Shown here: piece after piece, positions 6,801 through 37,266 of the stretch
Layout of the letters: the number at the start of each line of letters is the position of its first letter
Position numbering within the stretch: position 1 is the first letter of the stretch
Assembly: GCF_008087345.1 (NCBI RefSeq)
Contig: NZ_ML701737.1
Location: 417,210-481,209, forward strand
Reading direction: 5' to 3'
From: Nocardioides caldifontis
GTDB taxonomy: Bacteria; Actinomycetota; Actinomycetes; Propionibacteriales; Nocardioidaceae
Length of the DNA stretch: 64,000 nt
Translations under genes and position numbers: made by a program
The notes under the pieces: generated by a model
Told to the model about the DNA's origin: nothing
What the model saw: only the letters and a program-made list of their open reading frames with translations
The model's database searches: none

Positions 6801-6977
6801 GCACGCCTCCCCGAGATGGAGTACGCCGCACCGGAACCCCACCAGGTCCCGCGACCTGAATCCCGGGAACGCCGGTCGTCGCTCCCTTGACCTCAGCCCC
6901 CGTGACGGTCAGCCTCGAACTCTATCCGGCCCTTCCTGCGTTGAGAAGGGACCGATGACGGGCCAAGGAGTGGGGCT

Positions 6978-8970: not shown

Positions 8971-10120
8971 CCGCGCCACGCACCATCGCGTAGGCCTTGC
9001 GAAGGTCATGGAGCGAGCGCCCGTGCTGCACCGTGCGGACCGCGTCGGCGAACCGCACCGCCCGACGAGAACGCGCGCGTGCCAACGCCTGCTCGACCTT
9101 GAGCAGCCGGCGCGCCAGCTCCACGGGATCACCCTGGGCCATGAGAACTGCGTTGTCGTGGGCCACAGCCGTCGCAGGCGTCGGGGGAAGCTCGAGCTTC
9201 CCACCTCGCCGCAGCCAGCGCTGGTCCCCACGGGATCGAGGGAGCCCCCGCACGATCGGCTCCTCGACCGAGTAGCCGAAGCAGGCTGCCAGCTCTGCCA
9301 CCCGGTCGAGCGACCTGCGGTCCTCGATGCTGATGTCCGACCACCAGTGGTCGGCCCGGCCGGCGTCGATCGGGTCGGTGGTGACCGTGCTGCCCTCGAC
9401 CGCCCTGGGCGCCCCCTTTTCCGGCTGCACCTCGTGGTGGTTGAGCATCGACGGCGACCAGGGCGCGCCCAGGAACTGGACCAGTTCGTGGAGCACGGCC
9501 TCGCCGTGCCGCACCAGGTCCTCGTAGCGCAGCAGCGCGAACCGGTCCCCGACGGCTCGTGCTCCCTCGACCATGCGAGTGTTCGTCGCGCCCCAGTAGG
9601 AGACGGCCTCGTCGAAGCCGTAGTGGAACCTCCGGCAGAGAGAGGTCGCCACTCCTCCGGGGTGGCGCACGATCCCCACGAAGAGCGCCTCGGGGAACAC
9701 CTGCGCCATCTCCTGGACGTGCTCGGTGTGGAACGGGGTCTTCTCCGCCCAGCGCGACTTGCCTTCCTGCCGTGCGAAGCGCTCGAAGATGCCGGCGTAG
9801 AAGTCGTGCAACCGGACGTCCAGCTCGGGCTCGGTCCAACCGACCCGCTCGTACCAGCCGCGACCGGACTTCCAGCCGGGTACCTCCTTGACCGCACGCA
9901 GCCCACCCATGAACCCAGTCTCGCCTGGGCTCGCGATGTCCGGGTGGCTGTCGAGGATCAGTCTGAGCAACGTGGAGCCCGAGCGCATCGACCCGACGAC
10001 GAAGATCGGGGCTGTCCCGGCTTCTGACACGGTCCTCACCTCCCCACCAGCGTCCGCGGTCACGAGAGGCACACGGTAACCCCGTCGCAGCGTCACCGCG
10101 AGGGCCCTACGGGCAGCCAT
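8945..10120 (-). CDS. Sulfotransferase family protein
   Basis: A 391-aa sulfotransferase. The donor-binding loop VVGSMRSGSTLLRLIL lies at residues 41-56 (RSGST form) and IVRHPGGVATSL near 150-161 is the 3'-phosphate site. WAEKTPFHTEHV between them is typical of the bacterial Sulfotransfer_3 type. The ATG at 10120 is chosen because GGAGG lies five bases upstream. The C-terminal 80 residues, rich in Arg and Leu, extend beyond the usual domain. It is the first gene of a two-gene unit with the APH-like kinase. Confidence 0.84.
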   Translation of the reverse strand: MAARRALAVTLRRGYRVPLVTADAGGEVRTVSEAGTAPIFVVGSMRSGSTLLRLILDSHPDIASPGETGFMGGLRAVKEVPGWKSGRGWYERVGWTEPELDVRLHDFYAGIFERFARQEGKSRWAEKTPFHTEHVQEMAQVFPEALFVGIVRHPGGVATSLCRRFHYGFDEAVSYWGATNTRMVEGARAVGDRFALLRYEDLVRHGEAVLHELVQFLGAPWSPSMLNHHEVQPEKGAPRAVEGSTVTTDPIDAGRADHWWSDISIEDRRSLDRVAELAACFGYSVEEPIVRGLPRSRGDQRWLRRGGKLELPPTPATAVAHDNAVLMAQGDPVELARRLLKVEQALARARSRRAVRFADAVRTVQHGRSLHDLRKAYAMVRGADGGATASR

Positions 10121-10136
10121 GCTGACCTCCAGGCCC

Positions 10137-10166
10137 TTGCCTGGCAACGGCCGGCTGGCCTAGCGT
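10137..10166 (+). promoter_or_regulatory. Probable promoter of the secreted beta-propeller gene
   Basis: TTGCCT (10137-10142), an 18-base spacer and TAGCGT (10161-10166). The expected transcription start lies at the foot of the hairpin at 10174-10197. Confidence 0.4.
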
Positions 10167-12479: not shown

Positions 12480-13769
12480 TCAGGGAAGCGGCGTGAACGC
12501 GATGGAGTCCCTCACGACCCCGGCGAAGCGTCGCCCGTCAGAGCCGAACCAGATCCCGGTGCTCGTCGCGTAGATGAACTTCGTGCCCACACCCCGGGTC
12601 TTCCCCGGGTTCCAGGACAGAGCCCGGCCGTCGACGGGGTTCAGTGCGGCGATCCCTGGTCGCGACACGGCGCCGACGCTCGCGCTGTCACGGCCGAACG
12701 GGTTGTTCATCCACCGCTGGTGGCCACCGACGTACACGGCCGCACCGGTGACCGTGACGGAGTGCAACGTGTCCCCGCCCGTGTAGTTGATCCACACCGG
12801 ACGCGTCGGGTTGGGAACCGTCGTGTTGAAGCGTGCCGCGGCGTCGCAGATGTCGCGCCCGATCCCGGAGGTCGAGGCGGGGACGTAGCCGGTGGCGGCG
12901 ATGACGAAGTAGGACCCGTCGGGGCTGAAGTCGACGTCACGCAGCTGTGCGCGGAGTGCGCCGGCAGCGCAGTTGTTGACCAGCGGCTGGTAGTACCAGG
13001 GTGCGACGGTGGCAGCCGTCGGACCGAGGTCGGCCATGAACGCCCTCGCCCGTCCCAGGCCTCCGACCGTAGTGAAGTTGCCGACGGCCACGAGCCGTGT
13101 CCCGTCCGGTGACACCGCGATCCGGAAGACCTCCGTGGGGCCGGCGCCGTTGACCTTGACCGAGCCGCTGATCCCGAGGGCGATGTAGCCGGAGTCGCGT
13201 CCGTTGGCGGGGTCGAGCGCGATGAGCCTGTTGCGGAACGACCCCGCGACCAGCAGGCGGCCGTTCACGAACTCGAGGTCATTGACGACCCCGTTGATCC
13301 CCCGCGGCACCCATCCGGCGTCGATGACGGGGGTCGGTCCGTCCACGCGGTAGCGGACGAGCCGGCTGGCCACGCCGTCGGCATCGGTGAACGCACCGCC
13401 GACGTACAGGTAGGGCGCGACGTAGAGGGTCCGCCACACCTCGCCGTTCACCGCGGGCGTCCAGTCCGTGGGCGCGCCCGTCGCCACGTCGAAGGAGAAC
13501 AGGTTGTCCCGGACGAGCGTGCTGCGCCGGTTCGGCGGCTGGACGCTGTGGAACTTCCCGCCGGCATACATGACCGACCCGACCTGCGCGAACGTGTTCA
13601 CCGCGGCGTTCGCCACCACCGCGTCGTCGATGGCGTGCGGCGTCGACGGAGAGGGCACGGCGCTCACCACGGTCGGCTGCGCTGTCGATGCCGTCGACGG
13701 CGCGCCGACGGTGACGAGCGCTGCGGTCAACACCAGGGCGGCAGCACGCCCGTACCTCGACGATCTCAT
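12480..13769 (-). CDS. Secreted beta-propeller-like protein
   Basis: A 429-aa exported protein with a signal peptide (MRSSRYGRAAALVLTAALVTVGAPSTASTA, cleaved near residue 30). The mature chain has propeller-type repeats: VMYAGGKF, LYVGGAFTD, LLVAGSF, LVAVGNFTTVGG, FVIAATGY and VYVGGHQRW, each followed by LDPANG/ALNPVDG turns. It is distantly related to the protein at 10219-11328. AGGAG six bases before the ATG fixes the start. It is the last gene of the minus-strand operon that begins at 21359, 38 bases after the Wzz-like gene, so the product probably works with the exported glycan (inference). Confidence 0.75.
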   Translation of the reverse strand: MRSSRYGRAAALVLTAALVTVGAPSTASTAQPTVVSAVPSPSTPHAIDDAVVANAAVNTFAQVGSVMYAGGKFHSVQPPNRRSTLVRDNLFSFDVATGAPTDWTPAVNGEVWRTLYVAPYLYVGGAFTDADGVASRLVRYRVDGPTPVIDAGWVPRGINGVVNDLEFVNGRLLVAGSFRNRLIALDPANGRDSGYIALGISGSVKVNGAGPTEVFRIAVSPDGTRLVAVGNFTTVGGLGRARAFMADLGPTAATVAPWYYQPLVNNCAAGALRAQLRDVDFSPDGSYFVIAATGYVPASTSGIGRDICDAAARFNTTVPNPTRPVWINYTGGDTLHSVTVTGAAVYVGGHQRWMNNPFGRDSASVGAVSRPGIAALNPVDGRALSWNPGKTRGVGTKFIYATSTGIWFGSDGRRFAGVVRDSIAFTPLP

Positions 13770-13807: not shown

Positions 13808-14887
13808 TCAGGCCCGTCTGGTGACCAACGCTCCGACGCCCGACAGGCGCAGGAGCGACGTGCGGAGCCCGCTCGTGCGGCGGACGAGGACGACGGCGGT
13901 GGCGCCGGGGATGACGTGGTGCTCGGCGTGACGCACGACGGCACCGAGGGCGGCACCGAGGGGGACGACGATCAGCGTGAACGCGTCCTCGCCCCTGGTA
14001 GCCAGCTCGGGGGTCGTGGGGTCGTCGACGATGCGGGGATGCGTGACGGGCTCGCCGTTCGGGAGCCGTACCGGGAGGCTCTGGAAGATCTTGAACAGCT
14101 CGGCGACCAGCCGGCGACGTTCGGCGGCTGCCGAGTCGGGCCCCGTCACGAACACGACCCGGGCGTCCTGGTGCAGGAGTCGGTGGCAGACCTGCGCCAG
14201 CCCCGGCACCTCCCGGCTGCCCTTCTTCAGCTCCACGCTCGCCAGGACCGGCACCCCGGCCGCCCGCGAGGCGGCCGTCGGCGACAGGACCGGCCGCCGT
14301 ACCGCCATCAGCAGGGTGACGATGCCGACACCAACCACGACTCCCGCCGCGAGACCGGCGAGCACGAGCGGCAGCCACCGCACGGTGGCCGCGGGCCGGA
14401 CGGGGACGGCAGCGCTGCGCTGGACCGCGAACGTCCCCATCGGGTCCTCGTACCGGTTGAGCTCCTCGGTGAACGTGCCCGCGGCGGCGTTGGCCGCGTT
14501 GGCCGCGGCCTGAGCCGTCTTGCCGTGGCCGATCACCGTGAACACGAGGTTGTCCTGCGGGGCCACGAGCTCGACGTGGTCGGGGACCACCCGTTGGGTG
14601 CTCTCCAGCCGTAGCTCCCGGCGGACGGCGTCCTCGACCGCCCCGTTGGCGAACACCGTCTCGCCGGAGCGAGGCAGCGCATCGAGGTTGGGGATCGTCA
14701 GTGCCGTGACGGGCCCGACCTGGGCCTGTGCGTCGTAGCGATCCGCGGAGCTGCGGTGCAGCACCTCGGGCACGAGCACCCCGAGCACCACCATCGTGGC
14801 CAGCACGATCCACGCGTAACGGCGCAGCCCCCAGCCCAAGGCCGAGAACGCGTCCCCCTCCGAGGCGTGCATTCCGGTGTCCCTCAT
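13808..14887 (-). CDS. Wzz-like polysaccharide co-polymerase / chain-length determinant
   Basis: A 359-aa protein with two membrane segments, about residues 24-42 (YAWIVLATMVVLGVLVPEVL) and 175-198 (LPLVLAGLAAGVVVGVGIVTLL), enclosing an external domain of about 130 residues. This is the Wzz/capsular K-chain-regulator layout. The cytosolic tail has a degenerate nucleotide-binding-like domain (RVVFVTGPDSAAAERRRLVAELFKIF) without an intact Walker A Lys-Ser/Thr, so it is probably not an active BY-kinase. The start overlaps the ATP-grasp stop by four bases. It likely sets the chain length of the polymer made by the Wzy-like enzyme. Confidence 0.72.
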   Translation of the reverse strand: MRDTGMHASEGDAFSALGWGLRRYAWIVLATMVVLGVLVPEVLHRSSADRYDAQAQVGPVTALTIPNLDALPRSGETVFANGAVEDAVRRELRLESTQRVVPDHVELVAPQDNLVFTVIGHGKTAQAAANAANAAAGTFTEELNRYEDPMGTFAVQRSAAVPVRPAATVRWLPLVLAGLAAGVVVGVGIVTLLMAVRRPVLSPTAASRAAGVPVLASVELKKGSREVPGLAQVCHRLLHQDARVVFVTGPDSAAAERRRLVAELFKIFQSLPVRLPNGEPVTHPRIVDDPTTPELATRGEDAFTLIVVPLGAALGAVVRHAEHHVIPGATAVVLVRRTSGLRTSLLRLSGVGALVTRRA

Positions 14888-16089
14888 TGATTCCCCCCAG
14901 TTGTCGACCTGACCAGAATTCGGCTGCCACGCGCAGTGGCCCTCAGCACGTCGGCCACGAAAGGCAACGGGTCACGTGCCGACCAGATCGCGTGCGCCTT
15001 GTGCCCGCGCATCCACCGGAGCCAGTCACCAGCCGACAGGGTGCCCCGGCGCCGCGCGACTACTGCGGCCTGGAGGTCACGTCGTACGTCGACCCACTTG
15101 GCGTCGCCGTAGTGCTGCACCCGGGCTGCGGGCAACGGAAGGCCCATGGCGTCGCGGTAGGCCGTGTCCAGCAGCTCGACACCCCCGGCCTCCGCGATGG
15201 CGGCACGGCCCGTCGGGCGACCGACGTTGGGCTCGATGATCACCGCTCGCCCCGTGCGCGCGTCGCACTTCATCTCCAGGTACGCGAATCCGTGGAACCC
15301 CAGCCCGCCGAACAGCTTGAGCAGCGTGTCGAGCACCTCGTCGTTGCGGCACTCCTCTCCCGAGGCGCTGGTGCCGACGTCCGGCGGCCACTGACGCACC
15401 TTGCGAGCGACGAACGTGACCAGGGGGCTGCCGCCCTCATCGAAGTACGCGTTGCACGAGTACAGCCCGGTCTCCGAGCCACTCACCCACTCCTGGACGA
15501 GCAGCACCGGCGTCCAGGCCTCGATCCGGTCGTAGACCGCGAGCAGCTCGGCCGCGTCGTGCACGGGGATGGCTTTCGCGCTGGTGCGAGCGAGCCACCC
15601 CGGGGCCTTCATCGGGGGTTTCAGCACCGCCGGGAAGTCATGGCAAGCCGCCGCTCGGACGGCGTCCGTGCGGTCCCTCAGCACCGTCGTCCTCGGCACC
15701 GGAAGCCCCGCCGACGCGGCGTGCTCGGCGAACCGCACCTTGTCCAGGAGCAGCTCCACCGTGTCGTGCGACGCGAGCGGGAGGACCATCCCGTGCGGCA
15801 GCCGTTCGCGATGCAGGGAGAGGAACTCGACGGCCTCGTCGGTGCATGGCAGCAGGAAGAGCTGCGTCCCCCATCGGCGGGTCATGCCGCGAAGCGCCGC
15901 GAGCAGAGGCTCCCCCGACAGCGGGGCCGTGACGATCTCCCGGCAGGAGCGGGTCCGGGTGGCCCAGTGCCGGGAGTCGGCGACCACGCCCACCACCGGC
16001 ACACCCCTCGCGGCGAGGATGCGCGCGCTCTGGAGGCCGGTGATGCAGTCGAGCCCGATGACGACGGCCGGCGCTGCGGTGCCGCTCAT
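14884..16089 (-). CDS. ATP-grasp domain enzyme
   Basis: A 401-aa carboxylate-amine/thiol ligase-like protein. An N-terminal preATP-grasp Rossmann part (AVVIGLDCITGLQSARILAARGVPVVGV) is followed by the ATP-grasp fold with FPAVLKPPMKAPGW near residue 140, LVQEWVSG, and the metal-binding acidic stretch FAYLEMKCDARTGRAVIIEPNVGRPTGR near residue 290. It most resembles the CarB-like ligases found in bacterial glycan clusters, which join an acid to an amine or another nucleophile. The start at 16089 (CGGAG upstream) removes 43 Ser/Arg-rich codons with no domain. It overlaps the Wzz-like gene by 4 bp and follows the PEP-mutase-like gene by 19 bp. Confidence 0.75.
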   Translation of the reverse strand: MSGTAAPAVVIGLDCITGLQSARILAARGVPVVGVVADSRHWATRTRSCREIVTAPLSGEPLLAALRGMTRRWGTQLFLLPCTDEAVEFLSLHRERLPHGMVLPLASHDTVELLLDKVRFAEHAASAGLPVPRTTVLRDRTDAVRAAACHDFPAVLKPPMKAPGWLARTSAKAIPVHDAAELLAVYDRIEAWTPVLLVQEWVSGSETGLYSCNAYFDEGGSPLVTFVARKVRQWPPDVGTSASGEECRNDEVLDTLLKLFGGLGFHGFAYLEMKCDARTGRAVIIEPNVGRPTGRAAIAEAGGVELLDTAYRDAMGLPLPAARVQHYGDAKWVDVRRDLQAAVVARRRGTLSAGDWLRWMRGHKAHAIWSARDPLPFVADVLRATARGSRILVRSTTGGNQ

Positions 16090-16108
16090 GTCGCTCCGTG
16101 CCGACGTC

Positions 16109-17038
16109 TCATCGAACCTCGGCCTCCTCGGCCTCGATCGCCTCACGGGTGTGGACGAGCTCGAAGATGTGGTCGACTGCCGCGATCGCGCTGTCGACGT
16201 CGGCGGCGCGTCCGTCACCTGACAGCTTCGCCAGGGTCTCCTCCATGGCTTGGACGGATGCCCGCATCGGGTGGTTCGCGAGGATGACCATCGCGAACCC
16301 CTTCTGCTTGAGCTCGGTCGCGGAGAAGTCAGGGAAGAGCGTCGGGACCGCGACCAGGGGGACGTCCAGCCCGGTCGTGCCCCACGCCTCGAGGAACCCC
16401 TCGATCTGCTGCAGGGTCTTGTCCTTGGAGTGGATGAGGATCGCGTCGCACCCGGCCTCGGCGTACGCCACCGCCCGCTCGCAGGCAGCCTCGACGCCGT
16501 GCCCGGCGATCAGCGCCTCGACCCTGGCGATGAGGACGAACCCGTCGGTCTCCTGGGCCTGCTTGGCCGCGCGAAGCCTCCTGGCCTGCTCCTTCGTCGG
16601 CACGAGCTCCCGGATGGCAGCGCCCTGGTACAGGCTGTTCCGCTTGGGGAACAGGTTGTCCTCGATGCAGACCGCAGCGACCCCTGCCCGCTCGAACTCG
16701 CAGACCGTGCGGACCACGTTGCCGAAGCCGCCGTAACCGTTGTCGCAGTCGACGACGACCGGGAGAGACGTGACCGCGTCGATGCGCCTGGTCACGTCCA
16801 GCGTCTCGCTCATCGTCACCAGGTTCAGGTCCGGCAGGCCGTAGGCCATCGCGGACACCCCGAAGCCGCTGACCCAGACGGCGTCGAAGCCGCTGACATC
16901 GATGAGCCGAGCGCTCATCGCGTCGTGGGCGCCGACCGCGATCAGCGGCTCCTCGCCCACGAGTCCTTCCCGCAACGCCCTCCGCTTCCGATCTGCCGGC
17001 GGAACACGCCCCCCGAGCTCAGACGACCAGCTCGCCAT
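16109..17038 (-). CDS. Phosphoenolpyruvate mutase-like enzyme (ICL/PEPM superfamily)
   Basis: A 309-aa TIM-barrel protein of the isocitrate lyase/PEP mutase superfamily. Mg-binding residues are in VVVDCDNGYGG (D97, D99), and the gating loop reads IEDNLFPKRNSLYQG (residues 125-139). This is the phosphonate-specific motif EDKxxxxxNS except that Lys is replaced by Asn128. IARVEALIAGHG and DAILIHSKDKT also match PEP mutases closely, better than methylisocitrate lyases. PEP mutase makes phosphonopyruvate, the first C-P compound of phosphonate synthesis; phosphonopyruvate hydrolase is the alternative. The K-to-N change could alter activity. It overlaps the dehydrogenase gene by 20 bases. Confidence 0.75.
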   Translation of the reverse strand: MASWSSELGGRVPPADRKRRALREGLVGEEPLIAVGAHDAMSARLIDVSGFDAVWVSGFGVSAMAYGLPDLNLVTMSETLDVTRRIDAVTSLPVVVDCDNGYGGFGNVVRTVCEFERAGVAAVCIEDNLFPKRNSLYQGAAIRELVPTKEQARRLRAAKQAQETDGFVLIARVEALIAGHGVEAACERAVAYAEAGCDAILIHSKDKTLQQIEGFLEAWGTTGLDVPLVAVPTLFPDFSATELKQKGFAMVILANHPMRASVQAMEETLAKLSGDGRAADVDSAIAAVDHIFELVHTREAIEAEEAEVR

Positions 17039-17981
17039 CCTGCACCTCCTGCTCCAGCCTCTCGGCCTCGAACGCGTCGATCAGGTCGACGACGCGGCTT
17101 CCGATGATCTGCTGCGCCTCGAGCGCCATGGCTCCGATGTGCGGCGTGAGCACGACGTTGTCGAGCCCCGCCAGTGGCGACAGCACGCCTTCCCCTTCGT
17201 TCTCGTGGACGTCCAGCGCCGCTCCGACGACCGTCGTGCGCTCCTGGAGAGCCCGTGCCAGCGCTTGCTCGTCGACCACCCCGCCGCGGGCCATGTTGAC
17301 CAGCAGCGACCCCGGCTTCATGCGCGCCAGGAGGTCGGCGTCGACCAGGTAGCGGGTGGAGGAGCAGAGCGGCACGTGCAGACAGAGGAAGTCGGCCTCG
17401 GCCACGACCGTGTCGAGGTCGGTGAGGGTGACACCGCGTGTCGCCAGGGCGCGCCGCGCCTCGTCCCGGGGGTCGGCGACGCAGCCGAGCACGCGCATCC
17501 CCCAGGCGTGGGCCATCTCCCCCACCAAGCCGCCGATGCGCCCGGCGCCGACCACCCCGAGCGTCTTCCCCCGCAACATTGGGCCACCCAGCAGCGGCTT
17601 CGGCCAGTGGCCGGACCGCAGCTCGCGGTCCGCGACGACGACGTTGCGGGCCAGGGCCAGGAGGAGCGCGAAGGTCATCTCGGCAACGGGCACCGACGAC
17701 ACCCCGTTCACCCGGACGACCCGCACCCCCCGCTGCCGTGCGTGGCCGAGGTCGATGTTGTCGAGCCCGGAGCCGGCGCGCACGATGATCCGCAGGTCGG
17801 GGGCGGCCGCCATCACCTGCTCGTTCAGGACGACGCCGCTGCGGACCGCCACGGCTTGCCGGTCCGCGATCGAGGCGCAGAACTCTGCCTCCCCCGGGCT
17901 GGGCACCACGCGCAGGTCGTGCCTGCTTCCGAGGAGGTCGAGCGCGCCCGGGTCCAACGGGCTCGCCACCAGCACCCTCAT
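17019..17981 (-). CDS. NAD-dependent D-2-hydroxyacid dehydrogenase
   Basis: A 320-aa D-isomer-specific 2-hydroxyacid dehydrogenase. The NAD-binding GVVGAGRIGG motif is at residues 142-151. The catalytic residues are Arg in VNMARGGVVDE, Glu in ALDVHENEG and His in LTPHIGAM, in the correct order. It interconverts a 2-oxoacid and a 2-hydroxyacid. Because it overlaps the PEP-mutase-like gene by 20 bases, phosphonopyruvate is an attractive substrate (reduction to phosphonolactate is known in one phosphonate pathway), but other 2-oxoacids are equally possible from sequence alone. The true ATG at 17981 overlaps the upstream stop by four bases. Confidence 0.85.
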   Translation of the reverse strand: MRVLVASPLDPGALDLLGSRHDLRVVPSPGEAEFCASIADRQAVAVRSGVVLNEQVMAAAPDLRIIVRAGSGLDNIDLGHARQRGVRVVRVNGVSSVPVAEMTFALLLALARNVVVADRELRSGHWPKPLLGGPMLRGKTLGVVGAGRIGGLVGEMAHAWGMRVLGCVADPRDEARRALATRGVTLTDLDTVVAEADFLCLHVPLCSSTRYLVDADLLARMKPGSLLVNMARGGVVDEQALARALQERTTVVGAALDVHENEGEGVLSPLAGLDNVVLTPHIGAMALEAQQIIGSRVVDLIDAFEAERLEQEVQDGELVV

Positions 17982-18739
17982 CGGGCCACCTCCCAATGCT
18001 GGCACACGGTCCGCACGACGTCGGCGAGCACGACGTCGAAGGGTCGGGTGGCGTCGAGGACCACCATGGTGCGGGACTGCTCGGCCAGCGCGAGGTACTG
18101 CTGGCGGCGCTCCTCCAACCACTCGGGATTGGACTCGGGCTTCCGCGCGTGCAGCACGGCGGCCGGCGCGTCGAGGCAGATCGTGAGGTCGGGCTTCGGG
18201 TAGAGGTGGAGCAGCATCCACCCGTGCAGGCGAGCGCAGCGGCTGCGCGGCCGCTGCGTCGGGGCGATGTCGGCGTCCCAGTAGTCGGCGACGAAGTGCC
18301 GGTCGAAGACCACCAGCCGTCCGCGCCACCGGAACCAGAGCGCGATGGCCACGCGCAGCCACTCCTCCATCGCCCAGACCAGGAAGCGCACGACGTTCCA
18401 GGACGACCGCACGAATCTGGCAGGCAGCGGCGAGTCACCGGGCTCGACCGCCCGGAGCGGGCTCGCGACGAGGTCCGGGCGCCCACCGCGCCACCTCTTG
18501 ACCGCCACGAGGAGGCGCGTCGTCGGCAGCATCAACGAGCTCGCCTCGAGGTTGACCCCCATGTAGAGGGTCCGGACCGGGCCCGGGAGCGGCGCCGCCC
18601 GCAGGGCGCGGGTCATCGTGCTCTTGCCGGCTCCGTCGGCGCCGACGAGGGCGACAGTGAGCCCTCGTCGGCGGACGACGGAGACCGCCGCGTGCCAGCC
18701 AGGCACCCGTTCGGCGGCATGGAGCCCACCCCCGGTCAT
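17978..18739 (-). CDS. Thymidylate-kinase-like P-loop kinase
   Basis: A 253-aa P-loop NTPase. Walker A is LVGADGAGKST (residues 31-41) and VVFDRHFVADYW (about 145) matches the DRY/H motif of the thymidylate kinase family, followed by PDLTICLDAPAAVLHARK, the LID-proximal region. The protein is more divergent than housekeeping Tmk and carries a long central insertion rich in Arg/Trp. Relatives occur in surface-glycan clusters, where the substrate is unknown. It is coupled by 4-bp overlaps to both neighbours, so it is an integral member of the operon. Confidence 0.72.
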   Translation of the reverse strand: MTGGGLHAAERVPGWHAAVSVVRRRGLTVALVGADGAGKSTMTRALRAAPLPGPVRTLYMGVNLEASSLMLPTTRLLVAVKRWRGGRPDLVASPLRAVEPGDSPLPARFVRSSWNVVRFLVWAMEEWLRVAIALWFRWRGRLVVFDRHFVADYWDADIAPTQRPRSRCARLHGWMLLHLYPKPDLTICLDAPAAVLHARKPESNPEWLEERRQQYLALAEQSRTMVVLDATRPFDVVLADVVRTVCQHWEVAR

Positions 18740-19896
18740 ACGGGTTCCCGGGAGACGGCGGACCCACCCGAGACGAGGTCCGCAGCTGCCGTGAGCACCG
18801 CGTCACCGAGGGCGGCGATGTCACAGGGGTAGGGGTGGGTCACGACGGCGGCGGGGCGCCGACCCATGAGCCGTGCCAGGAGCCGTGCCTCCTGACGGGG
18901 TGCCCCCTCGAGCGCGGCGCACCTGCGGTCGGGGAAGGCGAACCGGAACTGACGGTAGTGCGCCAGCAGCGGTGCGCGCTCCTCGCGGAGCGAGGCAAGC
19001 ATCCGGCGTCCTACCTGCGCCGCCGTGGCCGGGGTGGTGGTGATGGCCTCACCGGTGGAGCTGAGGACGAGAACCACGGCGTCGAGCGAGCCGCTGAGGT
19101 CCACCTTCGCCTCGCCCACCAGCCCCGCCGGCGGCACCTGCACGTAGGCCTGACGCTCGAGCACCGGCGCCGCCTTGCGCGCCAACCCCGACGCCGGGGT
19201 GTTCGCGGTCGAGGCGACCTGCGCAGCCGTCGCGAACGACCGCCAGGCCCTCACCCGTCGCCGTTCCCCGCGCGACCGCGCGGACCGCACCTCCGGGAGC
19301 TGGTCGAGGTGCCAGCCCCAGAGCCGGATCCGCTCGGGCAGCCCCCACATGGTCCCGTCGGGGGTCAGGAACACCCACTCGTCGCCCACGTAGTGGGCCC
19401 CACGGGTGGCCGCCGCGAGCAGCGCTTCGGTCTTGCCGCCTTTCGACCACCCGGTGACCAGGACACCGCGCCCGTCCACGTTGAAGGCCGACGCGTGCAG
19501 CGGCAGGACGTCCTTGCCCAGCAGCACGAGGTTGAGGACGGCGAGGAGGTGCGGCACGGAGGTCGTCCCGCGCTGGCACTCCAGCATCGGAACCCCGCTG
19601 AGCGACTCGAACGGCAGCACCATCCTGGTCGGCTGCCCGCCGTTGCCGCGCAGCACCACGAACGACTCGTCGTCGAACCCGCAGTCCTGGAGCCCCACGT
19701 AGGTGAGAGGCCCGGGTGCGACCCGGTCGGCGAAACGCACTACTACGTCCGCCTCACCCTCCGGCGACGAAGGCGGCAGGCCGAGCTGCCGGCGCACGAC
19801 GGCGACGTCACGCACCGTCGCCGACTCCACCCGGATCCTGGCGAAACCGTGCAGGTCGAAGTCGACCGTGGTCAGCTCGCGCGCCGCCGGGGTCAC
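18736..19896 (-). CDS. HPr-kinase-like P-loop protein
   Basis: A 386-aa protein starting at a GTG that overlaps the stop of the sugar transferase gene (GTGA). PLHASAFNVDGRGVLVTGWSKGGKTE (residues 132-157) has the LHASAF strand and Walker A (GWSKGGKT) of the HprK/serine kinase-like family that recurs in exopolysaccharide clusters. YVGDEWVFLTPDG follows as the Walker B-like acidic segment. The N-terminal 125 residues have no recognised domain. The substrate could be a protein, a sugar or a small acid; I cannot tell. A longer frame extends about 90 codons upstream but only overlaps the transferase gene. Confidence 0.7.
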   Translation of the reverse strand: MTPAARELTTVDFDLHGFARIRVESATVRDVAVVRRQLGLPPSSPEGEADVVVRFADRVAPGPLTYVGLQDCGFDDESFVVLRGNGGQPTRMVLPFESLSGVPMLECQRGTTSVPHLLAVLNLVLLGKDVLPLHASAFNVDGRGVLVTGWSKGGKTEALLAAATRGAHYVGDEWVFLTPDGTMWGLPERIRLWGWHLDQLPEVRSARSRGERRRVRAWRSFATAAQVASTANTPASGLARKAAPVLERQAYVQVPPAGLVGEAKVDLSGSLDAVVLVLSSTGEAITTTPATAAQVGRRMLASLREERAPLLAHYRQFRFAFPDRRCAALEGAPRQEARLLARLMGRRPAAVVTHPYPCDIAALGDAVLTAAADLVSGGSAVSREPV

Positions 19897-21359
19897 CGGT
19901 CGCCCCTGGTGACGAAGCCGACGGCAGTGCGGAGCAGGATCTTCACGTCGGTCCACAGCGACCACCGCGTGATGTACGCGTTGTCGAACCAGGCGCGCTC
20001 GGCGATGTCGGTGTCGCCGCGCAACCCGTTGACCTGGGCGAACCCGGTCAGCCCTGCGGGCACCCTGTGCCGGGCGGCGTAGTGCGGGTACTGGCTGCTG
20101 AACTGCTGCACGAAGTACGGGCGCTCCGGGCGTGGCCCGACGAGGCTCATGTCTCCGCGGAGCACGTTCCACAGCTGCGGAAGCTCGTCCAGCGACAGCG
20201 TGCGGAGCACCCGACCCACCGGCCCGAGCCGGGGATCACCCTGGATCGACCACTGCTGGGCGGACTCCTCGGCCGTCGTGGGCGTGAGCGAGCGGAACTT
20301 CAGGATCTCGAAGCGGTGCCCGTCGAGCCCGACACGGACCTGGCGGAAGATGACCCCCGGTCCGCCCTCGAGGTAGACGCACAGCGCGCACAGGGCGAGC
20401 ACCGGCGAGAGCAGGACCAGGGCGACGACGGCCACCACCACGTCGACACACCTCTTGAGCCGCCAGGCCGGGCTGCGGTGGGCCGCCCGCCGCAACCGCA
20501 CCAACGGCAGCGAGCTGACCGTGTGCATGGCGGCGTCGCCGTGAAGCGGGTGCAACCGCGGCAGGACGTAGATCTCACCCGAGCAGCGGTCGCACCTCTG
20601 CAGCGCCTCGGCGACCGCGCGGTCGTCCGCCGAGGTGTCGGCGACGACGATGTCCCAGTCGGGGTGGCTCGCCATGAGCGTGGGCAGCTGGCTCAGGTCG
20701 CCCAGCCAGGGCAGCGACCGCCCGCGGAGGGGCAGCATTGCGAGCTCGGTGGGGGTGGTGCTCTCGTCATCGATCCAGCCGACCGGCTCGCGGCCGCACT
20801 CGGGGTGGTCGAGCATCGCGACCGCGACGTGACGTCCCGCGGGTCCGATCCCCACGATCATCGTGGGGCGCCCCTGGCGAGCCCGACGCAGCCGACGCAG
20901 GGCCACGTAACCGACCAGACGCCCCCCGCATGCCACTCCGAGAAACATCACCACCGCGGTGACGCGGAGCGGGCGTCCCACCAGGTCACCAGCCGCCATG
21001 CCGATAGCGCTCACCACCAGCACGCGTCCGACCAGGCCGGGCAGCTCGTCCAGGAGTGCGGGCTCCACCGGGTCGCGGTACCGGCCGCCGGTGGCGTTCA
21101 GGACGAGGACGCCCGCGAGGACACCTCCCGTGATCCACGATGCCGACGGCATCGCCGCGTAGGCAGCACAGGTAGCGATGACGTCCACGACGACGAGCCA
21201 GACCGCGACGCGGCTCCGCCTCCTCGCGGATCGAGCCGGCGGCCGTTCGGACACCTGCTCCGGAGGCGCAGGTGCGAACTGGTCATGCGCCGGCAGCCGC
21301 TGCCCCGGGAAGTCAGCGATCGCCGATTCCCTTGACATGACGGTGCCGTGCTTGGGCAT
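19893..21359 (-). CDS. Undecaprenyl-phosphate sugar-1-phosphate transferase (WbaP/EpsE-type)
   Basis: A 488-aa polyisoprenyl-phosphate hexose-1-phosphate transferase that starts glycan repeat-unit assembly on undecaprenyl phosphate. The N-terminal half has four to five membrane helices and a CoA-binding-like Rossmann region (TMIVGIGPAGRHVAVAM). The C-terminal half is the bacterial sugar transferase domain: RLKRCVDVVVAVVALVLLSPVLAL helix, GVIFRQVRVGLDGHRFEILKFRSLT, LDELPQLWNVLRGDMSLVGPRPERPYFV. GGAGGGGG upstream of the ATG at 21359 sets the start. It is the first gene of the eight-gene operon and has a perfect dyad 42 bases upstream. Confidence 0.9.
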   Translation of the reverse strand: MPKHGTVMSRESAIADFPGQRLPAHDQFAPAPPEQVSERPPARSARRRSRVAVWLVVVDVIATCAAYAAMPSASWITGGVLAGVLVLNATGGRYRDPVEPALLDELPGLVGRVLVVSAIGMAAGDLVGRPLRVTAVVMFLGVACGGRLVGYVALRRLRRARQGRPTMIVGIGPAGRHVAVAMLDHPECGREPVGWIDDESTTPTELAMLPLRGRSLPWLGDLSQLPTLMASHPDWDIVVADTSADDRAVAEALQRCDRCSGEIYVLPRLHPLHGDAAMHTVSSLPLVRLRRAAHRSPAWRLKRCVDVVVAVVALVLLSPVLALCALCVYLEGGPGVIFRQVRVGLDGHRFEILKFRSLTPTTAEESAQQWSIQGDPRLGPVGRVLRTLSLDELPQLWNVLRGDMSLVGPRPERPYFVQQFSSQYPHYAARHRVPAGLTGFAQVNGLRGDTDIAERAWFDNAYITRWSLWTDVKILLRTAVGFVTRGDR

Positions 21360-21525: not shown

Positions 21526-22269
21526 TCAGCGGGAGGAGGCGCGGCGCGAAGCTGCGAGGGCCGGGAGCGAACGCACTGCCAGGTAGGGGCGGGCCAGCTT
21601 GATCCGCAGGTGCGCGATGGTGTTGTCGTGGTAGATGCCGACCCGGGGGACGGCGAACCTCCCCGGCTCCTCGCGCTGCTCAGGAAGCGCGAACGCGTGG
21701 GTGTACCCCGCGCTTGCCGCCGCCGCTCGAACGTCCCCGTCGTGCCGGCCACGTGGGTAGGCGAGCAGCCTGACCGGGTGCCCGAGCACCTCCTCGAGGA
21801 CCTCCCGGCTGGCCCGCAGGTCCTCGACGCATTCCGCGAAGCTCAGCGTCGTGAGGTCGTGGTGCCAGTAGCTGTGCGACTCGAACGCGACGCCCGCCTC
21901 CTGCATCTCCCGGATCTGGTCGATCTCGAGCGTCGCGAGCGGCTCCGCCGGCGGGCGGTCGACCCAGTCCACCAACCTTCCCGGCTCCACTATTGTGCTT
22001 GCAACAAGAAAAACGGTGGCGGGCAGGCCTAGCTCGACGAGTAGCGGGAGGGCGTGGTCGTGCACGCTCGCGAAGCCGTCGTCGAAGGTGAGCGCGACGT
22101 CACGCCACCGTGGACCCGCCCCGAGGCCGAGCCGGTCGACGTAGGCGTGCAAGGGCACGACGCGGCGGTGGCGCGCCAACCACCTGGCGTGCTCGGCGAA
22201 GACCGCCGGCTCCATCGACATCGGCGCGGTCCAGCCCGGCTGCACCGCGTGGTAGCAGAGCACCGTCAT
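21526..22269 (-). CDS. Polysaccharide deacetylase (NodB-like)
   Basis: A 247-aa carbohydrate esterase family 4-type protein without signal peptide. Motif 1 is VALTFDDGFASV (about residues 57-68), motif 2 is FESHSYWHHDL (metal-binding His pair), and motif 3 is LLAYPRGRHD. These enzymes remove N- or O-acetyl groups from sugars. The absence of an export signal suggests action on a lipid-linked or nucleotide-sugar intermediate in the cytosol, or a missed anchor. The ATG at 22269 overlaps the glycosyltransferase stop by four bases, so it is translated with that gene. Confidence 0.85.
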   Translation of the reverse strand: MTVLCYHAVQPGWTAPMSMEPAVFAEHARWLARHRRVVPLHAYVDRLGLGAGPRWRDVALTFDDGFASVHDHALPLLVELGLPATVFLVASTIVEPGRLVDWVDRPPAEPLATLEIDQIREMQEAGVAFESHSYWHHDLTTLSFAECVEDLRASREVLEEVLGHPVRLLAYPRGRHDGDVRAAAASAGYTHAFALPEQREEPGRFAVPRVGIYHDNTIAHLRIKLARPYLAVRSLPALAASRRASSR

Positions 22270-23345
22270 CGCGCACCCACCGCCTCCGCATAGACCTCGC
22301 AGATCGCGTCGGCAACCCTGGCTGCCGAGTAGCGCTCCTCCACCCGCCGGCGACCGGCGGCCCCCATGGCACGTGCCCGATCGGCGTCGGACAGCACCTT
22401 CCTCAGGGCCACCGCCAGCTGCTCGGGCGCTTGGGGAGCGACGACGAACCCCGTGTGGCCATCCTCCACGAGCCGCGCCACGTCGCCCACGTCGGAGGCC
22501 ACCACCGGCAGCCCCGACGCCATCGCCTCGAGCACCGACATCGGCATCGCCTCCCACCACGAGGGCAGGCAGAACACGTCGGCACCGGTGTAGACCGCCG
22601 GCATCTCCTCCGGCGGACGTGTCCCGAGCAGCCGCGCGTTGTCACGGGCTGCGGCGAGCACCGGTTCGGCCGCGGCAGGCCCCTCGTCCGGGGTGCCGCC
22701 GAGCAACCAGAGCTCGTGCTCCAATCCCTCGTCACGGAGGGTGGACGACGCCGACAGCAGGTCGAGGACCCCCTTCCTCGGCGTGAGCAACCCGACGTAG
22801 AGCAGGCGCGGCGGGCGGTGGTGTCCGGTGGACGGCGTGAACCGGTGGAGGTCCACCCCGTTCTCGACGAGCCGGACGCGGTCCGACCCCAGGGCGCCGA
22901 CGAGCGCGACGTACCCGACTGTCCAGACCGCGACGACCCGGTGCACCGGCGCCATGGCGGCCTTCAGCAGCAGTTCGTTGCGGCGGGAGCCCAACCAGGT
23001 CGAGATGTTGCCGCCGTGGACGTGCATGACGACGGCGGCGCCGCGCAGCCGCGCGGCGAGTGCGAGCAGCCCGGCACGGGCGACGGTGACGGCGGGCGCG
23101 ACCGCCGAGTTCACGTGGACCACGTCGTGGTCGCGCGCCATCCTCCAGACGGCGAGGACGTCCCGAAGGGTGCGGGTCAGGTTGCCGATCGTTACCTGGC
23201 CTCCTTGCGGAGCGCCGGTGTGCGCGACGTTGAGGAACGTCACCTCGTGCCGCCTGCCGACCTCCCCGGTGCGTAGCTCCTCGAGGAACGTGGGGATGCC
23301 ACCACGATCCGGAGCGCCCTTGCCCACGAGCAGAACTCGACTCAT
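22266..23345 (-). CDS. Glycosyltransferase family 4 protein
   Basis: A 359-aa GT-B glycosyltransferase. The N-terminal acceptor domain begins VLLVGKGAPDRGGIPTF, the linker has VRLVENGVDLHRFTP, and the donor domain has LLYVGLLTPRKGV plus the E-x7-E motif in PSWWEAMPMSVLEAMASGLPVVASDVG. It is a retaining enzyme using an NDP-sugar in the cytosol, most likely extending the undecaprenyl-linked repeat unit. Length is normal. It forms a two-gene unit with the deacetylase and diverges from the sulfotransferase at 23522. Confidence 0.87.
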   Translation of the reverse strand: MSRVLLVGKGAPDRGGIPTFLEELRTGEVGRRHEVTFLNVAHTGAPQGGQVTIGNLTRTLRDVLAVWRMARDHDVVHVNSAVAPAVTVARAGLLALAARLRGAAVVMHVHGGNISTWLGSRRNELLLKAAMAPVHRVVAVWTVGYVALVGALGSDRVRLVENGVDLHRFTPSTGHHRPPRLLYVGLLTPRKGVLDLLSASSTLRDEGLEHELWLLGGTPDEGPAAAEPVLAAARDNARLLGTRPPEEMPAVYTGADVFCLPSWWEAMPMSVLEAMASGLPVVASDVGDVARLVEDGHTGFVVAPQAPEQLAVALRKVLSDADRARAMGAAGRRRVEERYSAARVADAICEVYAEAVGAR

Positions 23346-23521
23346 CTGTCCCCCAAGCGTCGTGCCGGGCAGTCAAGGTAACGCGGCAACGCGTGCGCGG
23401 CGACCCTTCGGCTCCGGGTACCTCGCATCTTGCGGAGCGGCACCCGGGCGCGCACGATGAGCGCGTCGGCGCGATCGGGTCTTCGTCGGGGGCCGCGCGG
23501 ACGGCGACGCTGGAGGGGCAC

Positions 23522-24553
23522 GTGGAATCCTTCGACGCAGGGCGACGAGCGACCACCGAGGGCATCCCGGCGCGCGCACGAGGCAGCGTGCTGTCCCTCG
23601 TCGGCGCGGGCCGGAGCGGGTCGACGGTGCTGAGCTCGGTGCTCGGTGAGGTCCCCGGATTCTTCGACGCCGGCGAACTGCGCTGGCTGTGGTCACGCGA
23701 CCTTCCCCAGCAGCGGCCCTGCGGCTGCGGGCTGCCTCCTGCCGACTGCCCGGTCTGGTCGGGCGCGGTGGAACAGGCCTTCGGCATCCCGCCGCACGAG
23801 CAGTCCGGACGCTCCCTGACTTCGGTGCTCGACCCCGTCGTAACGGCGCAGCGGGACACCACCCGGCTGCGCAACCGTCGAGCACTCCTCGCCGGCGCCG
23901 ACGGTCGCCGACCGGTCACCGAGGCGCAGGCGACGTTGTCGGACGCGACGGTCTCCATGCTTCGCGCACTCTTGGACGTCACGGGTGCGACCACCGTCAT
24001 CGACGCCTCGAAGCGTCCGCAGGAGGCCGCGGTGCTCGCCGCGACCGGCGCCTTCGACCACTACGTGGTGCACATCGTCCGGGACCCCCGTGCCGTCGTG
24101 CACTCATGGAGCCGCTCCAAGCCGCTCCCGGAGTTCACCGGCAAGGCGGCGATGGGTCCGCGCAGCATGCGCCGGACGTTGATGCGCTGGTGGGAGAACG
24201 CGGTCGGCGCCGAGGCCCTGAGACACCGGATCCCGCCGGATCGTTGGCTCTTCCTGCGCTACGAGGACTTCGCGCAGCGGCCTCGTGAGAGCGTCCGGCA
24301 GGTGCTCGAGCTCGTGGGCGACGCCCACGAGCCGCCCGTCGACGACCAGCGCTCGGTCGTGCTCGGCACGAACCACACGCTGTCGGGCAACCCGGACCGG
24401 TTCCGGTCCGGTCCGGTCGTGATCCGTCCCGACGACCGGTGGCGCACCGGGATGAGCCGGCGCGACAGGGCGGTCGTGCAAGCTGCCACCATGCCGTTCC
24501 TGCTGCGCTACGGGTACCCGTTGCGCGTGGCCTCGCCCGCCAGCGAAGCGTAG
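23522..24553 (+). CDS. Sulfotransferase family protein
   Basis: A 343-aa sulfotransferase-like protein. The donor loop SLVGAGRSGSTVLSSVL lies near residues 22-38 and HIVRDPRAVVHSW near 185-197 is the 3'-PB motif; YEDFAQRPRESVRQVLELVG follows as in other bacterial sulfotransferases. A CGCGLPPADCPVW stretch near residue 68 holds several Cys residues and is typical of this subgroup. The GTG at 23522 is preferred because GGAGGGG precedes it directly; a GTG at 23393 in the same frame adds 43 codons without a domain. The 3' end overlaps the convergent gene by 46 bases. Confidence 0.8.
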   Translation: MESFDAGRRATTEGIPARARGSVLSLVGAGRSGSTVLSSVLGEVPGFFDAGELRWLWSRDLPQQRPCGCGLPPADCPVWSGAVEQAFGIPPHEQSGRSLTSVLDPVVTAQRDTTRLRNRRALLAGADGRRPVTEAQATLSDATVSMLRALLDVTGATTVIDASKRPQEAAVLAATGAFDHYVVHIVRDPRAVVHSWSRSKPLPEFTGKAAMGPRSMRRTLMRWWENAVGAEALRHRIPPDRWLFLRYEDFAQRPRESVRQVLELVGDAHEPPVDDQRSVVLGTNHTLSGNPDRFRSGPVVIRPDDRWRTGMSRRDRAVVQAATMPFLLRYGYPLRVASPASEA

Positions 24554-30220: not shown

Positions 30221-30630
30221 TAAAAAAGCGGAAGGGCCCCGGAGGGGGGTTCCCGAGACCCTTCCTGGCGCTCGACCACGGACATCCGGGCCGGGCGCCT
30301 CCCCACGGGGCTGCGGTGGCCTCAGGAGATTTGGAGCCTTCCGGGTCGAACGGCTCCGCCGCCTCGGACGGCGGAGCCGCCTGCTCGACCCACCCATCGT
30401 GGAGCACGCCCCGTTCCGCGTCGGATGCTTTGCTGGTGCCACCTCCGCGTGTGCTCATCCCTTCCCACGACTGTAGGGAGGTCCGCCGGGGGTGCGCCAC
30501 AGCAGAGGCGTTCAGATCCGTGGACGTCTGGGGGGTTCGATCCCAACACATCGCGCAACCACCTCCGCCAGCTGTCTCGCGGATCGGGGCGGGCGTGTGG
30601 CCGGGAGCTGCACCTGAGAGAGTCGTGGAC
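30221..30630. other. Intergenic region upstream of serA
   Basis: 410 bases without a convincing gene. It contains a GC hairpin at 30352-30378 and a stretch GGAAGGG ... CCCTTCC near 30231-30266 that could be the old terminator of the regulator gene displaced by the IS. A GAGAGAG run precedes the serA start. No promoter pair with good spacing was found. Confidence 0.4.
30352..30378. terminator. GC-rich hairpin upstream of serA
   Basis: A perfect 10-bp stem, GGCTCCGCCG with CGGCGGAGCC, closes a 7-base loop (CCTCGGA). No T-tract follows. It may end transcripts coming through the IS or be part of the serA leader. Confidence 0.5.
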
Positions 30631-37158: not shown

Positions 37159-37266
37159 ACCCCCACGACAGCAGCCACGTCCGACAATCATCGATCATTT
37201 TCCGGGTCGACTAGACCACCGAATCACCCCAATCCGACGCAACGGGACAACCGTCCTCGGCCGTCA

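Follow-up and report, generated by a model that had tools for sequence, protein, structure and literature searches.

Reduction of phosphonopyruvate is a known way of drawing off the product of PEP mutase, as the preliminary description of the locus studied here had stated. A 2-hydroxyacid dehydrogenase yielding phosphonolactate has been published (PMC12871164), and VlpB is a phosphonopyruvate reductase for which the equilibrium-pulling principle is in print (PMC11867202). Phosphonoglycans have also been described (PMC6697681), that of Stackebrandtia likewise in PMC12723261. Three published censuses, as far as their available text goes, retain only sequences with the motif EDK-x5-NS; in one example, this filter kept 1,485 of 27,716 PF13714 proteins (PMC6697681).

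Here we describe a locus in a 64,000-nucleotide window of Nocardioides caldifontis. It encodes a PEP-mutase-like (PEPM-like) enzyme of a separate clade with EDN in place of EDK, accompanied by a fixed D-2-hydroxyacid dehydrogenase (HADH) partner and linked genes in a glycan-synthesis context. The route had been put forward as possibly undescribed. That claim does not hold for the pairing of a mutase with a hydroxyacid dehydrogenase (VlpB) or for phosphonoglycans, which are known, but the EDN clade, its fixed partner and its gene company were not found described in the searchable literature; most subscription papers lie outside that literature, and we do not claim that no description exists.

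Organization of the locus

On the minus strand between 13808 and 21359, the ORF list gives seven intact genes in the order GPT, HprK-like, Tmk-like, HADH, PEPM-like, ATP-grasp and Wzz-like (Table 1), all within a Wzx/Wzy polysaccharide cluster. The gene cluster is real, and because the same string recurs in other genomes it is not a chance arrangement. Eight genes had been counted in this range; the eighth, encoding a propeller-like protein, lies outside it, 38 bp past the Wzz-like gene, and is tied to the module by position only (in relatives, propeller matches are weak and occur in L011 only). Overlaps of 4 bp join GPT to HprK-like (GTGA), HprK-like to Tmk-like, Tmk-like to HADH, and ATP-grasp to Wzz-like, and the HADH gene does overlap the PEPM-like gene, by 20 bp. 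The PEPM-like and ATP-grasp genes lie 19 bp apart (+19) or overlap by 38 bp (−38) according to which start is taken for the ATP-grasp gene.

Table 1. Features of the polysaccharide cluster, with positions in the window
Feature	Coordinates	Strand	Evidence and remarks
Wzy-like polymerase/ligase	1700..3139	-	PF04932, 72.4 bits
Sulfotransferase	4299..5228	+	PF00685
Wzx-like flippase	5235..6842	-	PF01943, 57.7 bits
Sulfotransferase	6978..7853	+	PF00685
Sulfotransferase	8945..10147	-	PF13469, 121.1 bits
Secreted beta-propeller-like protein	12480..13769	-	DUF5122, 22.4 bits, under cut-off 27
Wzz-like chain-length protein	13808..14887	-	Weak TIGR03007 match, 26.6 bits; homologues in relatives' clusters
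ATP-grasp enzyme, 401 aa	14884..about 16089	-	Profile and fold matches; start further upstream possible
PEPM-like enzyme, EDN clade, 309 aa	16109..17038	-	PF13714, 195.9 bits
HADH, PGDH-like catalytic core, 320 aa	17019..17981	-	PF02826 and PF00389
Thymidylate-kinase-like (Tmk-like) P-loop kinase, 253 aa	17978..18739	-	Profile match to PDB thymidylate kinases
HprK-like P-loop kinase, 386 aa	18736..19896	-	GTG start; profile match to 3tqf
Polyprenyl glycosylphosphotransferase (GPT), glycan initiation	19893..21359	-	PF02397, 209.8 bits; TIGR03025, 343.3 bits, over cut-off
Polysaccharide deacetylase	21526..22560	-	PF01522, 98.7 bits; true start probably near 22275
GT4 glycosyltransferase, same cluster	22266..23345	-	PF00534 and PF13692
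Sulfotransferase	23393..24553	+	PF13469, 52.6 bits
GT2 glycosyltransferase	25601..26623	+	PF00535, 93.5 bits; homologues in relatives' clusters

The family assignments all stand as first described, those of the HprK-like, Tmk-like, Wzz-like and ATP-grasp proteins through weak or profile matches only. The Tmk-like profile (A4) matches PDB thymidylate kinases at 1e-8, and the HprK-like profile (A6) matches the Hpr(Ser) kinase 3tqf at 1.7e-4; NCBIfam matches of the HprK-like protein to FomB kinase and hpr-ser are weak and far under their cut-offs. The ATP-grasp profile (A3) retrieved cyanophycin synthetase and D-Ala-D-Ala ligase (2e-6) and a lysine biosynthesis enzyme (1e-4), and the AF2 model of this protein (pLDDT 89.2) has the superfamily fold, with Foldseek matches to PurK, CPS, biotin carboxylase and RizA.

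The EDN clade of PEP-mutase-like enzymes

Against the PEP mutase model TIGR02320, the PEPM-like protein scores 265.3 bits, below the equivalog cut-off of 319.55. All five EDN-clade members scanned fall under it (257.1–269 bits), as do the EDK-bearing sequences L025 (293.5), L022 (312.9) and L047 (308.9 bits). The phosphonopyruvate hydrolase model TIGR02321 comes second, at 209.5 bits with a cut-off of 374.4, and the order mutase, hydrolase, lyases holds in 5/5 clade members scanned. The top PDB matches are the PEP mutase structures 5unc and 1m1b.

Every EDN-clade row (15 distinct loci) keeps D58, D85, D87, E114, K120, N122, S123, L124, R159 and H190 (Mytilus numbering), all of which, S123 aside, have active-site roles in PEP mutase. 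Two sites differ throughout: each row reads EDN-x5-NS, thus failing the PEP mutase signature EDK-x5-NS, and DxDNG where PEP mutase has DxDTG. The Cys of the K[KR]CGH loop is catalytic in methylisocitrate and isocitrate lyases; it is absent from the clade, whose loop reads K-R-N-S-L.

Two unrooted trees were inspected, one of 45 rows, among them the very long L001 and the 13 members of a long-branch group (L034-L046), and one of 33 rows from which these 14 were dropped and to which two PDB lyases were added; both omit L002, L018-L020, L032, L033 and L048, which are second copies of rows present. In both trees the EDN proteins, sampled from Actinomycetota and candidate phylum KSB1, form a separate clade apart from all PEP mutase rows (the side of branching is not given), and the phosphonopyruvate hydrolases nest among the PEP mutase rows. 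Lyases are set apart at 87/80 in the first tree (three rows) and by a 100/100 branch in the second (five rows), so that the phylogenetic placement proposed earlier for the protein at 16109–17038 puts it outside the C-C lyases. No relative was found in viral contigs.

Because both the EDK-x5-NS test and the TIGR02320 cut-off failed, we infer, rather than assign outright, that the PEPM-like protein is a PEP mutase. The same failed cut-off, together with the change of two otherwise conserved sites in every row, which hints at altered chemistry, could instead mean that the EDN enzyme is another alpha-oxyacid enzyme of the superfamily (a C-C lyase, aldolase or decarboxylase, working in either direction) and that the dehydrogenase, from a family with members named for several keto acids, reduces the resulting keto acid, so that the glycan would be decorated with a D-hydroxyacid that is no phosphonate. 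We regard this as possible but doubtful: where the lyases have Cys-Gly-His the clade has Asn-Ser-Leu, like PEP mutase, whose H190, R159, K120, N122 and L124 are kept, and the mutase model scores top while the lyases lie beyond the 100/100 branch. A C-C lyase as the main reading was rejected on the active-site residues and the tree.

A phosphonopyruvate hydrolase or other catabolic enzyme, by which the module would recover phosphate or carbon from phosphonates, would fit the nesting of hydrolases among the mutases and the rank of TIGR02321 as second-best family, but is very improbable. The N122 position holds Asn in all clade rows, as in PEP mutase, and Thr in 5/5 rows of the hydrolase group; the TIGR02321 score is far from its cut-off; the module lacks an aminotransferase of the kind adjoining 3/4 plasmid genes of the hydrolase group that were read; and the setting is one of polysaccharide synthesis. 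The hydrolase reading was rejected on the N122 position and the gene context.

The partner dehydrogenase

With PF02826 and PF00389, an Arg/Glu/His triad and GxGxxG, the HADH has the features of a D-2-hydroxyacid dehydrogenase. Its nearest PDB relative is the phosphoglycerate dehydrogenase 1wwk, and it keeps the VRS and RAG motifs, which are substrate contacts. Phosphoglycerate dehydrogenase acts on phosphohydroxypyruvate, of which phosphonopyruvate is the C-P analogue lacking one oxygen. The triad R232/E262/H281 is invariant in 13/13 rows, and a DVFxxEP-like motif is replaced by DVHxxEG[ED]G in all 19 module HADH rows tested. In a tree that omits L017 (a match in two pieces) and L075 and L077 (second copies of included module HADHs), the module HADHs form one clade (100/99), apart from paralogues and nearest to phosphoglycerate dehydrogenase.

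The HADH gene lies next upstream of the PEPM-like gene in 21/21 distinct loci from two phyla which, with the separate module clade, bears out its earlier proposal as the partner of the mutase. Six of these loci were read after the pattern had been drawn, and all six have the HADH, EDN, DxDNG and DVHxxEG[ED]G; since the search for them used the profile of the clade itself, the HADH is the feature that tests the pattern more independently.

Distribution and glycan context

Among 149 family genomes, the PEPM-like gene occurs in four, and the Tmk-like gene in exactly those four (Fisher p 5e-8, indicative only as the genomes are related); the HprK-like gene is found in these four and one more, and the ATP-grasp gene in these four and two more. 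Relatives of the ATP-grasp (G009, G020) and HprK-like (G039) genes also occur without the HADH-PEPM pair. Coordinates of relatives' genes were taken from tblastn, a simple gene caller having misframed several high-GC loci. No Tmk-like gene was detected in the KSB1 loci read, and in L016, which gave no HprK- or Tmk-like match, an ATP-grasp match of about 30% identity lies on the opposite strand.

The spread of the module is patchy (4/149, 6/112 and 7/82 genomes), as might be expected if the enzyme pair were vestigial or belonged to unrelated central metabolism and were linked by island co-transfer. We give this very little weight, since neither enzyme varies in its active-site residues across the two phyla and the Tmk-like and HADH genes overlap by 4 bp in 11/11 loci.

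The window cluster has four sulfotransferases in total, and the module stands among GPT, GT2, Wzz/GNVR, and Wza-type export or Wzx/Wzy genes. The glycan-synthesis setting proposed for the module is thus seen in two phyla, with GPT, chain-length, export and glycosyltransferase genes flanking it in Nocardioidaceae, Geodermatophilaceae and KSB1. This flanking, along with the lack of an exporter within the module, weighs against the release of the phosphonate as a small, phosphonopeptide-like molecule made via the ATP-grasp enzyme, with the glycan genes as mere neighbours. Known ATP-grasp ligases do couple phosphonates to amino acids (PMC11867202), the fold matches include the L-amino acid ligase RizA, and an ABC-2 type transporter pair lies at 35318–37191, about 14 kb off; nevertheless, we consider this unlikely.

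A Pfam scan of 30 window genes recognised no phosphonate transferase or nucleotidyltransferase. Phosphonopyruvate decarboxylase (TIGR03297) was found in 0/8 carrier genomes at E 1e-10, in a search whose controls gave sub-cut-off matches in 7/14 genomes and none over the cut-off, hence no true positive control, and in which G059 is 77% complete and the completeness of four genomes is not stated. With no decarboxylase in 8/8 carriers, another draw-off step is therefore needed.

Proposed route

The original interpretation, a PEPM-like/HADH/ATP-grasp route to a decorated polymer, is partly supported. We propose a sulfated surface polysaccharide of the Wzx/Wzy type for which the HADH-PEPM pair would provide a phosphonate of three carbons. 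From its active-site residues, the EDN-clade enzyme is predicted to convert PEP to phosphonopyruvate, which the HADH with NAD(P)H would reduce to 3-phosphonolactate, pulling the mutase reaction forward against its unfavourable equilibrium. Activation of a carboxylate, plausibly the one on phosphonolactate, is the probable task of the ATP-grasp enzyme, which we guess to link it as an amide or an ester to a building block of the glycan; more speculatively, the substrate of the Tmk-like and HprK-like kinases may be the phosphonate or the acceptor to which it is joined. We give this route, from PEP through phosphonopyruvate to phosphonolactate joined to the polysaccharide, with reactions and attachment both predicted, about an even chance. 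Weighing against it are the failed EDK-x5-NS test and TIGR02320 cut-off, the distance of the clade from the PEP mutase rows, the ATP-grasp and HprK-like relatives found without the pair, the missing Tmk-like match in the KSB1 loci read, the divergent L016 locus, and the lack of a recognised transferase or nucleotidyltransferase in the 30 window genes.

Nucleotide kinases phosphorylate phosphate monoesters, and FomA/FomB phosphorylate fosfomycin. A bolder version, which we think improbable, is an unrecognised C-P branch, missed by EDK-based surveys, whose phosphonolactate would be fixed to the surface polysaccharide by way of kinases. The Tmk-like protein would phosphorylate the phosphonate group to a phosphonyl-phosphate anhydride, and kinase activation with ATP-grasp ligation would do the work that a decarboxylase and CTP-dependent activation do in the phosphonoglycan routes known so far.

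If the proposed route is true, actinobacteria and an uncultured phylum would make phosphonate surface polymers by a route that EDK-based searches miss. There would be another early branch point for glycan phosphonylation, with cultured carriers such as Geodermatophilus telluris or Blastococcus sp. DSM 46786 indicated as test strains, and one could ask if catalysis by PEP mutase requires the lysine of EDK.

Comparison with known systems

The module enzyme shares PF13714, the catalytic residues and the top-scoring family model with PEP mutase (PepM/Ppm, TIGR02320), but has EDN and DxDNG, scores below the equivalog cut-off and forms its own clade. Phosphonopyruvate hydrolase (TIGR02321) belongs to the same superfamily and is the second-best model; it differs at the N122 position and in context. 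The catalytic core of SerA is the best PDB relative of the HADH, with the VRS/RAG motifs and triad in common, whereas the module HADHs stand as a separate clade with their own DVHxxEG[ED]G motif.

Phosphonoglycan clusters (the Bacteroides fragilis AEP capsule and the Glycomyces and Stackebrandtia glycans) likewise have a mutase gene among surface-polysaccharide genes (PMC6697681, PMC8931226), but commonly with a phosphonopyruvate decarboxylase and a nucleotidyltransferase, neither of which was found here (8 genomes and 30 window genes, respectively). In the PntC-type pathway, a nucleotidyltransferase is fused to or beside the mutase; here the 309-aa ORF is a single domain by Pfam, and none was seen among the 30 window genes. 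The VlpA/VlpB-type valinophos route, with VlpA as its PEP mutase, resembles the module in its logic. Both pair a PEP mutase or PEPM-like enzyme with a 2-hydroxyacid dehydrogenase (PMC12871164, PMC11867202), in a peptide cluster there and in a glycan cluster here.

The gene string and its surroundings

Between positions 21359 and 13808 the minus strand carries seven intact genes, five of whose six junctions overlap (by 4, 4, 4, 20 and 4 bp); the junction of the PEP-mutase-like (PEPM-like) and ATP-grasp genes comes to +19 or -38 bp, depending on the start chosen. The preliminary description had presented an eight-gene minus-strand operon with overlaps of 4-26 bp between most of the genes, of which the seven genes and overlaps of 4-20 bp stand, while the propeller gene that it counted in falls outside. 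Its claim that the dehydrogenase gene overlaps the mutase gene is confirmed by the coordinates, at 20 bp.

Around the string is a polysaccharide cluster of Wzx/Wzy type. Its genes encode a flippase, a Wzy_C protein, glycosyltransferases of the GT4 and GT2 families, a deacetylase and four sulfotransferases. The host genome is 4.8 Mb in size, and the best named relatives at the locus are Nocardioidaceae MAGs. The frame at 29404-31827 is probably an insertion beside a serA-like gene.

Features of the seven-gene string, in minus-strand order, and of its surroundings
Position	Strand	Feature	Remark
	-	Polyprenyl glycosylphosphotransferase (GPT)	First
	-	HprK-like P-loop protein	Second
	-	Thymidylate-kinase-like (Tmk-like) protein	Third
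	-	D-2-hydroxyacid dehydrogenase (HADH)	Fourth
16109-17038	-	PEP-mutase-like (PEPM-like) enzyme	Fifth
	-	ATP-grasp enzyme	Sixth
	-	Wzz-like protein	Seventh
12480-13769		Propeller gene	38 bp past the Wzz-like gene
3025-4062; 11377-12420	-; +	Related pair, 58% identical	Recurs in relatives' clusters; no match to any Pfam family
24508-25266	-	Conserved cluster gene	In relatives, 64-71% identity; no match in Pfam scan
29404-31827	+	In-frame fusion of an ISL3-type transposase domain and a phosphoglycerate-dehydrogenase-like HADH with ACT domain	Single ORF
35318-37191	-	ABC-2 type transporter pair with DrrA-like ATPase	Some 14 kb away from the module

Assignment of the PEPM-like enzyme

Among family models, the window protein scored highest with PEP mutase (265 bits), followed by phosphonopyruvate hydrolase (PPH; 210 bits) and methylisocitrate lyase (182 bits), and fell below the cut-off of all three; four relatives show the same pattern, with 257-269 bits for the PEP mutase model. 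Alignment to solved enzymes shows the functional Mytilus PEPM residues D58, D85, D87, E114, K120, N122, S123, L124, R159 and H190 retained in the window protein and in its relatives, all of which have Asn-Ser-Leu at the site of the lyases' Cys-Gly-His. Every relative departs from PEPM at two positions, DxDTG being replaced by DxDNG and EDK-x5-NS by EDN-x5-NS, and we refer to these proteins as the EDN clade. In the window enzyme the two residues concerned are N100, where ordinary PEPM has Thr, and N128, where it has Lys. Judged by this motif, the window enzyme is assigned as PepM-like, not PepM, under the EDK-x5-NS definition. The evidence of other aligned proteins on the two odd positions cuts both ways. 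A Bradyrhizobium guangxiense plasmid protein annotated AepX (L030, 3046-3903) is odd at both, like the EDN clade, with DGDGG and EDS-x5-NS, and nonetheless scores above the PEPM cut-off (338 bits). In contrast, L024 and L047 combine DCDSG with a normal EDK, which shows that the DxDTG position can vary alone.

A first tree of 45 rows, three of them lyases, put the EDN clade (15 rows; branch supports 88/100) beside PEPM plus PPH, with support of 87/80 for separation from the lyase rows. The second tree had 33 rows, after removal of a single very long row and a long-branch group of 13 and the addition of two further solved lyases; here the PEPM plus PPH group received 97/89 and the EDN clade 83/94, and the five lyase rows separated at 100/100. 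Because the trees are unrooted, they show three groups and no branching order. The preliminary description had called for placement among the PEPM, PPH and ICL clades, and in neither tree (45 and 33 rows, unrooted) did any EDN-clade row fall among the C-C lyases; the clade forms a group of its own.

A dedicated dehydrogenase partner

In the window, in the 13 loci of the GTDB contig scan described below and in genome G130, the gene immediately upstream of the PEPM-like gene, in the same orientation, encodes the HADH; at one locus (L017) the HADH match is split in two pieces. Six further loci, five from KSB1 and one from Geodermatophilaceae, are known solely from profile searches of the Geodermatophilus family and KSB1, and their distinctness from the earlier ones was judged by the length or number of the contig or by match coordinates. 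Each of the six combines an upstream HADH bearing the signature DVHxxEG[ED]G with EDN-x5-NS and DxDNG; since they were retrieved with the clade's own profile, HADH adjacency counts as the more independent finding. In total, HADH lies directly upstream in 21/21 distinct loci, with a gap of about 250 bp in some KSB1 loci.

In the tree of dehydrogenases, the HADHs of the module make up a single clade (100/99). Outside it lie the HADH paralogues found in the window's own genome, in Geodermatophilus genomes and in KSB1 genomes, as well as solved phosphoglycerate dehydrogenase and glyoxylate reductase; the closest outsider is an own-genome paralogue (L084; 86/94). The catalytic residues Arg232, Glu262 and His281 are invariant in 13/13 rows. 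The closest solved enzymes are phosphoglycerate dehydrogenases, whose substrate, phosphohydroxypyruvate, is a phosphate ester that phosphonopyruvate resembles.

Distribution and companion genes

All counts refer to the genomes available in this analysis. A short-peptide scan of GTDB contigs, which reaches close relatives only, found 13 loci with a PEPM-like protein (61-79% identical), hosted by Nocardioidaceae, Geodermatophilaceae, an Acidimicrobiaceae MAG, an unplaced actinobacterial MAG and two KSB1 MAGs. Within the Nocardioidaceae, protein searches (E 1e-60 or better) found it in 4/149 genomes. A profile search of 396 genomes of its own phylum returned the own genome (546 bits) and one other match (274 bits), and ordinary PEPM above the TIGR02320 cut-off occurs in 13 of the 396. 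By profile search, the EDN clade is present in 6/112 genomes of the Geodermatophilus family and 7/82 of the KSB1 phylum; a search of viral contigs for relatives came up empty. Cultured carriers include Geodermatophilus telluris DSM 45421 and Blastococcus sp. DSM 46786.

Among the 149 family genomes, with at most 12-18 candidates scored per genome, the four genomes with PEPM-like, and no others, have the Tmk-like protein (E 1e-20); the HprK-like protein (E 1e-20) is found in one genome besides these four and the ATP-grasp enzyme (E 1e-40) in two besides. The Fisher p values (5e-8, 3e-7 and 8e-7, respectively) are only indicative because the genomes are related. Around the two additional ATP-grasp copies (43-48% identical), stretches of 19 and 14 kb were read, and no further module gene came to light. 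In G039, the additional HprK genome (84% complete), the HADH-PEPM pair was not detected; a polysaccharide cluster there (L067, L060) has HprK-like genes, of which the genome contains two, along with other cluster genes.

Wherever the Tmk-like and HADH genes adjoin, they overlap by 4 bp (11/11 loci). No Tmk-like match was found in the KSB1 loci read, some of them short. There, GPT and GT2 precede HADH in 5/5 loci with enough contig (L015, L091, L092, L094, L095), ATP-grasp and HprK-like genes follow in 4/4 (L015, L091, L092, L095), and Wzz/GNVR genes are present, with Wza-type export genes in two. Two loci depart from this arrangement: L016 shows just a weak ATP-grasp match, on the opposite strand, and L012 has ATP-grasp and Tmk-like genes on the opposite strand and no HprK match in the locus. 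Because these companions vary while the pair stays, HADH-PEPM is the core of the module. In two phyla the module retains its glycan surroundings.

Some of these loci carry additional genes. Two KSB1 loci have a phytase-family gene (PF02333, >340 bits) between PEPM-like and ATP-grasp (L091 7857-8915, L092 7697-8926), and two others a DUF4956, VTC and CotH trio in that interval (L015 9903-14376, L095 4619-9046). In the Acidimicrobiaceae locus (L012 11945-15389), a FemAB-type gene and two further genes without a Pfam or NCBIfam match lie between the ATP-grasp and Tmk-like genes.

Proposed route and comparison with known systems

According to PMC12871164, the equilibrium of PEP mutase lies more than 500-fold towards PEP, and the known pulls are a decarboxylase, an aminotransferase or a 2-hydroxyacid dehydrogenase. 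Phosphonopyruvate decarboxylase was not found in 8/8 carrier genomes searched, not all complete, in a search without a true positive control because no control genome passed the model cut-off. HADH would be the obvious pull on the mutase, yielding phosphonolactate. The ATP-grasp profile is nearest to cyanophycin synthetase and D-Ala-D-Ala ligase, and its predicted model (pLDDT 89) to PurK, carbamoyl-phosphate synthetase, biotin carboxylase and the ligase RizA, which suggests an enzyme of carboxylate-activating type; our guess is that it might activate the carboxylate of phosphonolactate. Roles for the Tmk-like and HprK-like kinases are a matter of speculation.

In the literature that could be searched, neither the EDN clade nor its exclusive HADH clade was encountered, nor ATP-grasp/Tmk/HprK company without a decarboxylase or recognised nucleotidyltransferase. 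PMC12723261, PMC6697681 and PMC8931226 all require EDK-x5-NS, a filter that excludes EDN-clade proteins. The preliminary description had raised the possibility of an undescribed route. The pairing of PEPM with hydroxyacid dehydrogenase chemistry is already known from VlpB (PMC11867202, PMC12871164), and phosphonoglycans are likewise known and, according to PMC6697681, predicted to be common.
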